This document shows, piece after piece, positions 4,012 to 17,485 of a stretch of DNA of 17,485 nucleotides. Under the pieces are notes generated by a model, which was not told where the DNA came from, searched no databases, and saw nothing but the letters and a program-made list of their open reading frames with translations. The DNA is from a bacterium (GTDB lineage: Bacteria; UBA9089; CG2-30-40-21; SBAY01), in assembly GCA_040757115.1 (NCBI GenBank), contig JBFLYA010000073.1, forward strand, positions 1 through 17,485, given 5' to 3'. Made by a program: the position numbers and the translations under genes. Numbering within the stretch: position 1 is the first letter of the stretch; every line of letters begins with the position of its first letter.

Positions 4012-4196
4012 AATACTCGTAACTACTCGTAGTGAATTAACAAGTTATGCACAAACCATTACTACACTATGTCAAATTAGTGCTATAACTCTCTATATTT
4101 TTAGACAATTATGTCCATTTGGCTTGCCTTCTCCCATTTCTTATGATAAAAATGGAAAAAAATAGAATGTGAAAATTCTACCTCATCCTTCATTTA

Positions 4197-4368
4197 ATGT
4201 CCCATCGGGACAACATATCGGTAGAAATAAATATCATCCAAATAATGTCCCATAGGGACAATATATCGGTAAATGGCTTTCCACAAATTTTCTACCAATA
4301 TATCGTTCCTACGGAACTGATTGATTTGTCTATCTATTCCTACCGATATTATGTTCCTAACGGAACGA
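4197..4368. repeat. Two-plus-two inverted array of small hairpins with covarying stems
   Basis: Four units are present. A (4197-4227) and B (4245-4273) read + strand: a 13-base palindrome GTCCC-N3-GGGAC followed by AAYATATCGGTA. C (4290-4318) and D (4337-4368) are the same unit inverted: CTACCRATAT-N-ATCGTTCC or similar, with the palindrome now GTTCC-N3/4-GGAAC. The C-to-T change in the left stem is matched by G-to-A in the right stem, so base pairing is preserved. Together A-B and C-D can also fold on each other as long arms. The spacing is irregular and units alternate orientation, so this is not a CRISPR. The 86-codon open frame across it is a by-product of the repeats. Confidence 0.75.
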
Positions 4369-4403
4369 TTATTCTCATGCCTTATTTATGGGTATTATCC
4401 TAT

Positions 4404-4487
4404 GTAAACTTCCAGTTAATAACCGCTATATCAACCATCAACTATCAACAATACTAATGTGAACTTTTGGTTAATACTTACTATAAT
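4404..4487 (+). repeat. Two short repeats related to the left-edge module
   Basis: GTAAACTTCCAGTTAATAAC continuing into CGCTATATC (4404-4432) and GAACTTTTGGTTAATACTTA continuing into CTATAAT (4461-4487) resemble each other and the module at 30-54. Copies share a pattern of AACTT, then TTAATA, then CTATA about 25 bases in all. The divergence is high, so an ancient tandem duplication is as likely as a mobile family. Confidence 0.4.
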
Positions 4488-5519: not shown

Positions 5520-5851
5520 GTAAAATTATCTCTTTCCTTTCAGCGTTAAAATAGAAGTCCTTTTGGGTTGGGACGGTTCACTTTTGTTTGAAAGATTGCA
5601 GTTAGAAAATGAAGTTAAAATTGGAAATTCGAAATTAGAAATTAGGGAAGGAAGTAAAAGCCCAATTTCTAATTTCCAATTTCAACTTTCTGTGAACGCT
5701 TACAAGTGACATTCGAAAGAAATCATAGGAAAAACGATAAAAGGAACCGTCCCGTCCTTTTTGAAATTTGATTTGTAATTTTGCATTTTGCTATTTGCTA
5801 TTTGATATTTATTTGTTGTCTCTCCCAAATCCTATTTTGCAGAACCCTATA
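5520..5851 (-). repeat. Dispersed repeat copy, interrupted by an insertion
   Basis: Two blocks of this region, 5520-5553 and 5761-5851, are the reverse complement of 13058-13091 and 12936-13035. The 34-base block is identical and the larger one nearly so. Weaker likeness continues below 5520: the TTTTGCATTTTG-x-TCTTTGGA word pattern near 5470-5495 (minus strand) recurs at 13165-13188. In the uninterrupted copy the two blocks are 22 bases apart; here they are separated by about 207 bases that include the element at 5565-5753. Confidence 0.8.
5557..5761. mobile_element. MITE-like insertion with GGGACGGTTC inverted ends and 8-bp flanking repeats
   Basis: The 8-bp direct repeat GTCCTTTT lies at 5557-5564 and 5754-5761, bracketing a 189-bp segment. 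The segment has inverted termini GGGACGGTTC (5570-5579) and GAACCGTCCC (5744-5753); the left one is preceded by five extra bases, GGGTT. Inside is a long hairpin, 5611-5647 pairing with 5661-5688, with one bulge of seven or eight bases. TGAACGCTTAC at 5693-5703 is one base off the TGAACGGTTAC terminus of the other element family. There is no coding capacity. Insertion into the dispersed repeat is supported by the uninterrupted copy at 12936-13091, although the bases at the junction do not match it exactly. Confidence 0.6.
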
Positions 5852-7554: not shown

Positions 7555-7574
7555 ATTCAATCCTTTACCAATGA

Positions 7575-8639
7575 CTAATGACTGCTCTCTCTCGACACCT
7601 GTGCTTGTTCAAATGTTGCCATTTGGGTAAGTATCTTAACGCCTGCTTCGACTAAACTTATGGCTAATGCGGCGCCTGTTCCTTCTCCTAATCTTAACTC
7701 CAGGTTTAAGAGGGGTTTCAGTCCTATAAATTCTAAAATTACCTGGTGTCCTTTTTCTACTGAGGTATGCCCGGCAATCATATAATCTTTAATTTCTGGT
7801 TTCAGGGTATAGGCAATGAGAGCGGCGGCACCTGAAATAAATCCATCAATGACGATTGGAATTCTATTCCCCGCGGCGGCTAAAAGAACACCAACCAACC
7901 CGCCAATTTCAAATCCACCTAATTTTGATAAAACATCCAATCCGTTCTTTGGATTTGGATTATTAAATTCAATGGCTTTTTTAATCGTTTCTATTTTCCT
8001 TTTTAACATCTCATCATCAATGCCAGTTCCTTTACCAGTAACATTTTTTACTGGCTGTTTAGTAATCGCGGCGACAATAGCCGAAGAAGGGGTAGTATTT
8101 CCTATCCCCATATCTCCGGTGCCAACAATGTCTATACCTGAATTAGTCAATTCTGATTCAAAAACCTCTACTCCAGCCATAATTGAGTTAATAGTTTGGC
8201 GGTAGCTCATCGCCGGATGTTTGGTTATATTTTTAGTTCCATACCCAATCTTTTTAATGACAAGTTCTGGCACTGGTTCTAAATCTGCGGCAACACCCAT
8301 ATCCACAACGATTACCTTTGCCCCAACATGTTTAGCCAGAACATTTATTCCTGCTCCACCACGAATGAAATTATAAACCATTTGAGGAGTTACTTCCTGG
8401 GGAAACAAACTAACCCCCTCTTCACAAACTCCATGGTCTCCAGCCATAGTAAAAATAACCTTTTTGGAAAGGTCAGGATTCCTTTTGCCAGTAATAGCCA
8501 CCACAACTCTTGCTAATTCCTCCAATCTACCAAGACTATCCTTAGGCTTTGTTAAATTATCCAATCTACTTTGTGTCTCTTTAAAAGAATTTTTATCAAT
8601 AGGTTTAATATTTTCCAATAATTTTTCTATTTTTTGCAT
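7575..8639 (-). CDS. cobT: Nicotinate-nucleotide-dimethylbenzimidazole phosphoribosyltransferase
   Basis: CobT transfers phosphoribose from nicotinate mononucleotide to the lower-ligand base (5,6-dimethylbenzimidazole or another base), giving the alpha-ribazole phosphate used in the cobalamin nucleotide loop. At 354 residues it has the family's normal length. Visible motifs in order: TKPKDSLGRLEELA (30-43), AGDHGVCEEGVSLFPQEVT (66-84), FIRGGAGINVLA (91-102), GTGDMGIGNTTPSSAI (173-188), GKGTGID (202-208), GFISGAAAL (266-274) and LGEGTGAALA (317-326), where Glu319 corresponds to the catalytic Glu317 of the Salmonella enzyme. AAGGA lies four bases before the ATG. It is 48 bases downstream of cbiB, in the same operon. 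Confidence 0.95.
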   Translation of the reverse strand: MQKIEKLLENIKPIDKNSFKETQSRLDNLTKPKDSLGRLEELARVVVAITGKRNPDLSKKVIFTMAGDHGVCEEGVSLFPQEVTPQMVYNFIRGGAGINVLAKHVGAKVIVVDMGVAADLEPVPELVIKKIGYGTKNITKHPAMSYRQTINSIMAGVEVFESELTNSGIDIVGTGDMGIGNTTPSSAIVAAITKQPVKNVTGKGTGIDDEMLKRKIETIKKAIEFNNPNPKNGLDVLSKLGGFEIGGLVGVLLAAAGNRIPIVIDGFISGAAALIAYTLKPEIKDYMIAGHTSVEKGHQVILEFIGLKPLLNLELRLGEGTGAALAISLVEAGVKILTQMATFEQAQVSRESSH

Positions 8640-9787: not shown

Positions 9788-10057
9788 CTAATTTAGTAAC
9801 CGTTCAGATAGTAATTCACCGCAGAGACGCAGAGGAACAGAGAAGAAATTGAAATAAATCAGACAACAGAAAAGATTATTGAGGCAATCATTGTCCTACA
9901 TAGGACCTCAAAACCAAATTTGTTAATCAATTATGATATGTCGGTTTTCAAAAGCTTGCTCTGATGAAAATCCGTGATGGAATGAAGCATGTGGTAAATA
10001 GTTTTTAATTTTTTCTCTGCGTCTCTGTGTCTCTGCGGTGAACGGTTACCTAATTTA
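9788..10057. mobile_element. 254-bp element with perfect 11-bp inverted ends and 8-bp target duplication
   Basis: The element proper spans 9796-10049. Its ends are GTAACCGTTCA (9796-9806) and the exact inverse TGAACGGTTAC (10039-10049). The 8 bases CTAATTTA flank it directly at 9788-9795 and 10050-10057 (nine if the next G is counted). Just inside each end are complementary stretches of CACCGCAGAGACGCAGAG-type sequence. The core is the remnant of a GxxExxY-type gene. It encodes no transposase, so it would need one in trans. Solo or degenerate right ends lie at 176-232 and 4556-4645, and one-base variants of the terminus at 5693-5703 and 17295-17305. Confidence 0.75.
9815..10008 (+). pseudogene. 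Remnant of a GxxExxY-family gene inside the mobile element
   Basis: From 9815 the frame reads through the repeat (TAETQRNREEIEINQ) into TTEKIIEAIIVLHRT, which resembles the start of GxxExxY proteins (typically LTEKIIxAAIEVHRxLGPG). It then jumps to KPNLLINYDMSVF, like their C-terminal GLLINFNV strand, and stops at 9962-9964. The overlapping frame 9961-10008 reads LMKIRDGMKHVVNSF and stop, like the usual LKDGIKRVVN ending. The central part with the name-giving GxxExxY motif is absent, and there is a frameshift. GxxExxY proteins are small members of the PD-(D/E)XK nuclease superfamily of unknown role. The assignment is by eye from short matches. Confidence 0.5.
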
Positions 10058-12937: not shown

Positions 12938-13256
12938 TAGGGTTCTGCAAAATAGGATTTGGGGGGAGACAACAAATAAATATCAAATATCAAATATTAA
13001 ATATCAAAATGCAAAATTACAAATCAAATTTCAAATTGGTAATATCTTTGCTTCAAGTATTTTAACGCTGAAAGGAAAGAGATAATTTTACTGAACTGTG
13101 GCAGAGATAGTTTATAGTTTATAGTTGATAGTTGAAGGACTATAAACTATAAACTATAAACGAGTTTTGCATTTTGCTCTTTGGAGGAAATTGATAAAAA
13201 TAGAGGTCTTAAATACCCGTTTAAAAACTACAGTTTCCTGGTTTTGCAGAACTCTA
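12938..13256 (+). repeat. Repeat element with TAGRGTTCTGCAAAA inverted ends
   Basis: The left end TAGGGTTCTGCAAAATAGGA (12938-12957) and the right end TTTTGCAGAACTCTA (13242-13256) are inverted copies apart from one base. The interior has AT-rich ATATCAAAT words (about 12975-13000), the block 13058-13091 shared with 5520-5553, a strong hairpin (13110-13161) and the TTTTGCATTTTG word. The left 100 bases are repeated, inverted, at 5761-5851. No clear target duplication is seen. It occupies the gap between the Nudix and pseudopilin genes and ends 15 bases before the pseudopilin start. Confidence 0.6.
13110..13161. repeat. Near-perfect 23-bp hairpin of GTTTATA units
   Basis: The arm at 13110-13132 (GTTTATAGTTTATAG and on) is the reverse complement of 13139-13161 except for one base, with a six-base loop. 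The sequence is all A/T-rich GTTTATA repeats. It is absent from the homologous position in the copy near 5500, so it is a later insertion or expansion. No T-run follows, so it is not a standard terminator. Confidence 0.75.
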
Positions 13257-17143: not shown

Positions 17144-17183
17144 TCGAAATTTGACCCAGATATGGCTATGAAATTCCAAATCA

Positions 17184-17305
17184 CAAATTCCAAATTCCAT
17201 TTAGTGAATTAGTGAATTAAGCGAATTAGCGAATTAGTAAAATCTAATCTCTAATTCACTAATCTCTAATTCGCTTTTTGGTATGTGGAATTTGTAAGCG
17301 TTCAG
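17184..17305. repeat. Large imperfect hairpin ending in a variant element terminus
   Basis: CAAATTCCA at 17184-17192 and 17191-17199 pairs with TGGAATTTG at 17286-17294. Between them GAATTAGTGAATTAAGCG-type words (about 17205-17238) face CTAATTCAC and CTAATTCGC words (about 17250-17274). Immediately after the hairpin comes GTAAGCGTTCA (17295-17305), one base from the GTAACCGTTCA end of the element at 9796. TGAACGCTTACAA at 5693-5705 is the exact inverse of 17292-17304. Confidence 0.55.
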
Positions 17306-17324
17306 GTGGTGTAACAAAAGGAGA

Positions 17325-17485
17325 TATGGAGATTAAGGGGATAAGGGGATATTATTTAAAAAAATTGAAATTAGTAGAAACTGATAGAAATTTATGGAAA
17401 TTTGTTGTTTTCCACAATCAATTTCTACCTATTTCTATAAATTTCAATCTATTTCTATTATCTTATCTCCATATCACTCTTATCT
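17325..17485. repeat. Imperfect palindromic repeat of TAGAAAT words at the right edge
   Basis: Left arm words GATATGGAGATTAAGG and TTGAAATTAGTAGAAACTGA (about 17325-17400) are mirrored by TTTCTACCTATTTCTATAAA and TATCTCCATATCAC (about 17420-17478). The arms match imperfectly, with a centre near 17405-17415 (GTTGTTTTCCACAA). No gene lies between the batE stop and the window end. Confidence 0.55.

Follow-up and report, generated by a model that had tools for sequence, protein, structure and literature searches.

The stretch of DNA analysed here, a window of 17,485 nucleotides, carries a short element of 254 bp (9796-10049) whose limits can be read directly from the sequence, located in an intergenic region between protein genes and not within a 23S rRNA helix. 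With its flanks, the segment at 9788-10057 reads CTAATTTA / GTAACCGTTCA ... TGAACGGTTAC / CTAATTTA. The left copy of an 8-bp target duplication, CTAATTTA (9788..9795), is followed by the left terminal inverted repeat GTAACCGTTCA (9796..9806, plus strand), assigned to the IS66/ISBst12 type by its sequence and by comparison with IS66, and the right terminal inverted repeat TGAACGGTTAC (10039..10049, minus strand) precedes the right copy of the duplication (10050..10057); the two inverted ends match perfectly, at 11 of 11 bp. Between them lie a left array of tandem units (ACCGCAGAG ACGCAGAG GAACAGAG; 9817..9844, plus strand), placed like the arrays beside full-length GxxExxY genes, a remnant of the start of a GxxExxY gene (...TTEKIIEAIIVLH; 9846..9906, plus strand), a remnant of the end of such a gene after an internal deletion (LLINYDMSVF..., frame broken; 9907..10011, plus strand) and a right tandem-unit array (10013..10041, minus strand). 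An earlier note on this DNA had placed one 15-mer just inside both ends, which is correct for the left side, where CGCAGAGACGCAGAG is found exactly at 9820-9834, and incorrect for the right, where the arm read inward holds only the close variant CGCAGAGACACAGAGACGCAGAG. The interior contains no open reading frame of 60 aa or more and no transposase gene, and as single-stranded DNA the element is predicted to fold into one long hairpin (-47.2 kcal/mol; z = -7.6 against shuffled sequences).

The reading of this segment as a complete MITE with 11-bp perfect ends and an 8-bp duplication, put forward in the earlier note, is borne out by the sequence and by the orthologous site in the congener G001, which reads ...TTTTAATCTAATTTAGCCAG..., contains CTAATTTA once, has near-identical flanks and lacks the element, and thus provides an exact empty site. 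Relatives of the MITE were found by BLAST at 87 places in its own genome, the best being 98% identical over almost the full length, and G001 contains further copies elsewhere in its genome. One such copy (L348 767-1026; G001:C164:4766-5025) precedes the empty site by about 160 bp. At the site corresponding to window positions 7573-7580, G001 also has an insertion of its own, which shows GTAACCGTTCA at an end and is accompanied by the duplication GACTAATG. A genome-wide count gives 553 copies of the end sequence GTAACCGTTCA and 8 of a reversed control. The fetched stretches, about 0.57 Mb in all, contain 115 closely spaced TIR pairs, of which 31 are bordered by perfect 8/8 duplications that differ in sequence (28 of 118 under slightly different counting rules), where chance would yield about 115 x 4^-8, roughly 0.002. 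This excess, together with the perfect duplications, shows that ends and duplication are not products of chance. The flanks are indeed A+T-rich, but the idea that inverted ends and a duplication arose fortuitously within an A+T-rich region is next to inconceivable: the congener's empty site refutes it, and the dozens of relatives in the genome and the 31 perfect duplications speak against it. A TIR pair spanning 2,941 bp in L055, whose duplication matches at 7 of 8 positions, was taken as chance.

The ends themselves point to a known family of insertion sequences. The window element conforms to the IS66/ISBst12 end pattern, starting with GTAA...TCA(G) and flanked by an 8-bp duplication. In the ISBst12 group, ISDge4 of Deinococcus has the end GTAACTGCTCAGCA, and its active transposition generated an 8-bp repeat (PMC12898284); two Paracoccus IS66 elements are likewise listed with 8 bp (PMC3281130). 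The earlier note had proposed looking for a transposase with the same ends, and one exists: an IS66-type transposase remnant with internal stop codons (L039) is bounded by GTAACCGTTCAGGTA...TACCTGAACGGTTAC, both ends being exact. In the genomes G002 and G007, IS66 genes have GTAACCGTTCA past their 3' end as single matching ends, and an open IS66 copy of 541 aa in G005 has GTAACTACTCAGG at both ends. The IS66 transposases of the element's own genome, a 462-contig assembly, are fragments only, and a search of this fragmented assembly and of relatives yielded no intact IS66 copy whose two ends are exactly GTAACCGTTCA. Features shared with the ISBst12 group, of which ISDge4 is an example, are the GTAAC...TCAG ends, the 8-bp duplication and, in the related full-length copy, a single-gene transposase; the window element differs in having GxxExxY remnants and tandem arrays, and no transposase, inside the ends.

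The same ends enclose a varied cargo. Among the 31 duplicated elements, 19 carry GxxExxY-derived sequence, five an S23-family gene or remnant and seven other sequences, mostly arrays; GTAACCGTTCA-type ends, with 8-bp duplications, thus also surround S23 genes and gene-free array hairpins. Outside this genome, GTAAC-type ends were found within 250 bp of none of 82 GxxExxY loci (80 loci and two loci on viral contigs), and within it the GxxExxY cassettes L012, L014 and L016 are also without them. The earlier note had named intact GxxExxY genes lacking such ends as the finding that would refute its idea, and genes without them are what these loci show: GTAACCGTTCA as a general end of GxxExxY elements is not supported, and the ends belong, on sequence grounds, to the IS66/ISBst12 type and not to GxxExxY elements in general. 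Since one type of end surrounds GxxExxY, S23 and array cargo alike, the window MITE was most likely moved in trans by an IS66 transposase, which would have recognised the GTAACCGTTCA ends and inserted the MITE with its 8-bp duplication; the ends, the duplication and the empty site are observed directly, and from them we infer the enzyme and its action. By the same token, ends that occur on an IS66 remnant, on S23 genes and on gene-free hairpins, and at none of the 82 GxxExxY loci elsewhere, make GxxExxY most likely a passenger in elements of the window type and not their mover.

How a GxxExxY cassette came to lie inside such ends can be traced in part. The earlier note had read the core as a GxxExxY gene without its middle, and comparison with L013, which is full-length and has the same outer ends, agrees: the MITE core aligns with both ends of L013, about 200 bp of the middle being lost, so that the GxxExxY gene of the window element is not intact. 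In L011 and L013, the GxxExxY gene lies between arrays within GTAACCGTTCA-type ends and is interrupted by stop codons, and in L009 and L010 the GxxExxY genes are open. L010 and its counterpart L224 in G001 share an insertion from which about 165 bp of the gene have gone in G001. G001 also lacks an entire GxxExxY element (L023 1438-1948), and there is an overlap of 8 bp at the corresponding site. The alignment to L013 shows, and a similar deletion seen at one congener locus illustrates, that the MITE arose by internal deletion of an element of about 470 bp, in which a GxxExxY gene lay between inverted arrays of units of about 8 bp. The parental genes belong clearly to the family (162 and 139 bits against a curated cut-off of 35; TIGR04256 / PF13366), which has 65 PF13366 matches in the genome. 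The window element is a new member of the IS66-type MITEs, and it is very probably a non-autonomous element of ISBst12-like type derived from an array-framed GxxExxY element. With MITEs it has in common that it is short, non-coding and multicopy, with inverted ends and a target duplication; it differs in that its interior is a deleted nuclease cassette and not a deleted transposase gene.

The arrays have a distribution of their own. Each of the 20 longer GxxExxY matches of the genome was inspected; L012, L014, L016 and others each have their own inverted array, for example CACAGAGACACGGAGG, GGACGCAGAT and GCAAAGGACGCAAAGG, with GGGATAAGGGGATAAAGG and more elsewhere. The cassettes in L012, L015, L017 and L018 also lie within outer inverted repeats of a third kind (CGACCTGTG...). 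A wider set comprised 80 further loci, one genome per species, from at least 15 phyla by record title and including two archaeal records, in which a strict array motif was defined as two CRCRRAG units one to three bases apart within 150 bp of the gene. This motif is present on at least one side in 70 of the 80 loci with both flanks and on both sides in 49, the reversed motif occurring in 7-9 flanks; its density is 9.9 per kb near the gene and 0.24 far from it, with a far control of 0.02. Several of the 10 loci free of the strict motif have two-sided variant arrays (CACGACGG in L168, CAGGGAGG in L180 and TAAACGGAG in L158). The arrays consist of two to four tandem units of about 8-10 bp, inverted about the gene and mostly oriented toward it (53 against 12 flanks on the left, 56 against 17 on the right), and the arms of one locus match each other, the units varying from locus to locus. 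When the left flank was scored by best local alignment against the reverse complement of the right, the median was 39 within loci, 18 between loci and 16 in random windows. The arm match exceeded the 99th percentile of random windows at 71% of loci, the remaining 30% or so, which are not above this control, including many with variant, one-sided or hairpin-type arrays by eye. Compared with other open reading frames of at least 100 aa at the same loci (median 16), 40 of 79 were above the 99th percentile (P = 2e-26, under an assumption of independent loci that holds only roughly). The arrays go with the GxxExxY gene rather than with the IS66 ends, and the earlier idea that scattered CGCAGAG repeats are ends of a GxxExxY element is supported, over a wider range than that note could know, as far as it makes the arrays a component of the unit (70 of 80 loci from many phyla); GTAACCGTTCA as its general end is not supported (0 of 82).

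Gene and repeats also keep company at the level of whole genomes. In a survey of 146 genomes, comprising relatives and members of the same domain, the dispersed array motif is present in 32 of the 41 with PF13366 hits and in six of the 105 without (P = 3e-18, which takes the genomes as unrelated, shared ancestry being uncorrected); outside the phylum of the window, the figures are 19 of 28 and four of 99. These observations suggest that the array-framed GxxExxY gene is a widespread selfish unit. Gene and arrays are found together without IS66 ends in at least 15 phyla, and in this lineage the unit has come to be enclosed by IS66 ends, as have S23 cassettes. A phage origin of the cassettes was rejected because only two GxxExxY loci were found in 2.9 million viral contigs.

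The protein encoded by the intact genes is under constraint: dN/dS between diverged copies is about 0.1, which indicates that it is kept by selection, and in 75 sequences LGPGLLE..Y, D64, E74, K76 and Q88 show little or no variation. A search of PDB sequences returned no GxxExxY relatives. The AlphaFold2 model (pLDDT 95.5) finds its best structural match in the Cas4 protein SSO0001 (Z 9.5 over 96 residues, rmsd 3.3; Foldseek E 2.5e-3, all Foldseek E-values for the fold match being above 0.001), followed by restriction-enzyme and Holliday-resolvase folds with Z about 7, and supports a predicted PD-(D/E)XK nuclease core. GxxExxY shares this predicted fold with Cas4 and lambda-exonuclease-like PD-(D/E)XK nucleases but is about half their size, and none of the loci read here showed it in an operon for CRISPR or recombination.

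The layout is not peculiar to the nuclease gene. Genes for the S23/IVP four-helix bundle (PF05635), with 26 matches in the same genome and present in 60 of the 146 genomes, lie between inverted arrays of 6-10-bp units that are again locus-specific (GGGACTCG, GTAGTCA, AATTCCAA and ATAGTTG); at 29 other loci, the S23 arm match is 40 within the locus and 16 between loci, the own arm ranking first in 21. Since these nuclease-free S23 genes have the same array layout, the arrays do not require GxxExxY. A second transposon type with an S23 cassette is seen at L197 1397-1944: its ends are different (ACCCTACAACGWCAT), and G001 (L226) lacks it, the site showing a 6-bp overlap. Similar cassettes are known from rRNA: the intervening sequence (IVS) of Coxiella 23S rRNA contains an S23 gene, is bounded by terminal inverted repeats and has tandem GACAGAT heptamers ahead of the gene (PMC4990558). 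The present cassettes share with the IVS the small gene within terminal inverted repeats and, with that of Coxiella, the tandem heptamers; an IVS sits in rRNA and encodes S23p, whereas the cassettes described here lie in other intergenic regions. The searched texts contained no literature joining four-helix-bundle proteins, inverted repeats and mobility.

Arrays and their cargo also turn over between sister species where IS66 ends are lacking. The same intergenic sites in two congeners hold different genes and arrays (L199/L239 and L192/L236), or a gene cassette in one and a gene-free array hairpin in the other (L014/L221, L200/L237 and L202/L223). It is conceivable, at perhaps the same level as the selfish-element reading given below, that host processes, namely slippage, quasi-palindrome template switching or selection for RNA hairpins and terminators, maintain the arrays, the genes enclosed by them being passengers that are tolerated in the loops. 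Arms that match within loci and differ between them, and different arrays at one intergenic site in sister species, are in line with this, as is the tolerance of 23S rRNA IVS with S23 genes as RNase III-cut stems (PMC4990558); such processes leave unexplained, however, why two specific gene families are regularly present in the loops and why CRCRRAG arrays are rare in genomes without GxxExxY.

Somewhat less probable is that mobilisation is the work of GxxExxY itself, in which case gene and arrays would form an autonomous, REPtron-like unit and the IS66-like ends would be secondary. Matched arrays flanking the gene in many phyla, the co-occurrence of gene and dispersed arrays across genomes, the near-invariant catalytic residues with purifying selection, and the absence from the congener site of the L014 cassette, which lacks IS66 ends and is replaced there by a different array hairpin, all argue for it. 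The S23 genes, which encode no nuclease within the same layout, and gene-free arrays of quite unlike sequence that also turn over argue against it, as does the comparison of congener sites, in which cassettes without outer ends showed neither a clear target duplication nor a clean insertion. The inverted repeats around the gene that are also dispersed through the genome liken GxxExxY loci to REPtrons, REPINs and TIRtrons, and the arrays might be moved in trans by a Y1 tyrosine transposase of the RAYT type, a mechanism proposed for REP sequences; the inverted layout of REP doublets and TIRYT repeats is similar (PMC3116915, PMC3733652). Such a mover is improbable, as a motif scan of the fetched stretches, which cover part of the genome, yielded one Y1-like gene with no adjoining arrays. 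GxxExxY is not itself such an enzyme, its catalytic D, ExK motif and predicted fold being those of PD-(D/E)XK proteins whereas REPtrons and their kin encode a Y1 transposase, and its repeats are tandem arrays of variable 6-10-bp units rather than one palindrome.

Tentatively, we propose that the two arrays of a pair would fold into a hairpin, in single-stranded DNA or in RNA, that a small selfish element would replicate or be tolerated in this form, and that the GxxExxY protein, with its Cas4-like PD-(D/E)XK core, would process this hairpin or its junctions. In the broader form of this proposal, equally speculative, GxxExxY genes with paired inverted arrays would constitute an undescribed class of very small selfish elements with a minimal Cas4-like nuclease acting on array hairpins, S23 cassettes, including the rRNA IVS, would be a second branch of the same architecture, and IS66 MITEs of the window type would be captured and decayed copies. 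GxxExxY (TIGR04256) is a common orphan family named by only two papers, once in each, of the searched literature; that literature, which misses most subscription papers, contained no description of the array-framed unit, nor were the array sequences found in it as a described repeat. Beyond the window MITE, the main interest lies in the regularity of this unit across phyla: matched arrays in at least 15 phyla and the likeness to S23 cassettes give two orphan families a shared context, make their function directly testable and offer a possible origin for scattered repeats of the CGCAGAG/CACGAAG type and perhaps for rRNA intervening sequences.

Array hairpins are also found within one another, and the window itself offers several such structures. 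A hairpin of (ATAGTTT)n / (ACTATAA)n at 13107-13161 lies inside what remains of an S23-type cassette whose arrays are AAATATC (12978-13036), arms of AAATTCC surround TTAGTGAATT...AATTCACTAA arms in nested arrays at 17171-17272, and a TTAGAAATT / AATTTCTAATTTCC array hairpin at 5602-5690 is contained in a longer inverted-repeat region with AAATGCAAAA arms as well. Two further repeats recur in G001: one of about 236 bp at 4195-4430, with TCCCATCGGGACAA / TATCGGTAG motifs, is found at many places with up to 97-98% identity, and one at 17289-17485, with a GTAAGCGTTCA end and GGGGATAAGGGGAT arrays, at a dozen places with about 96% identity.
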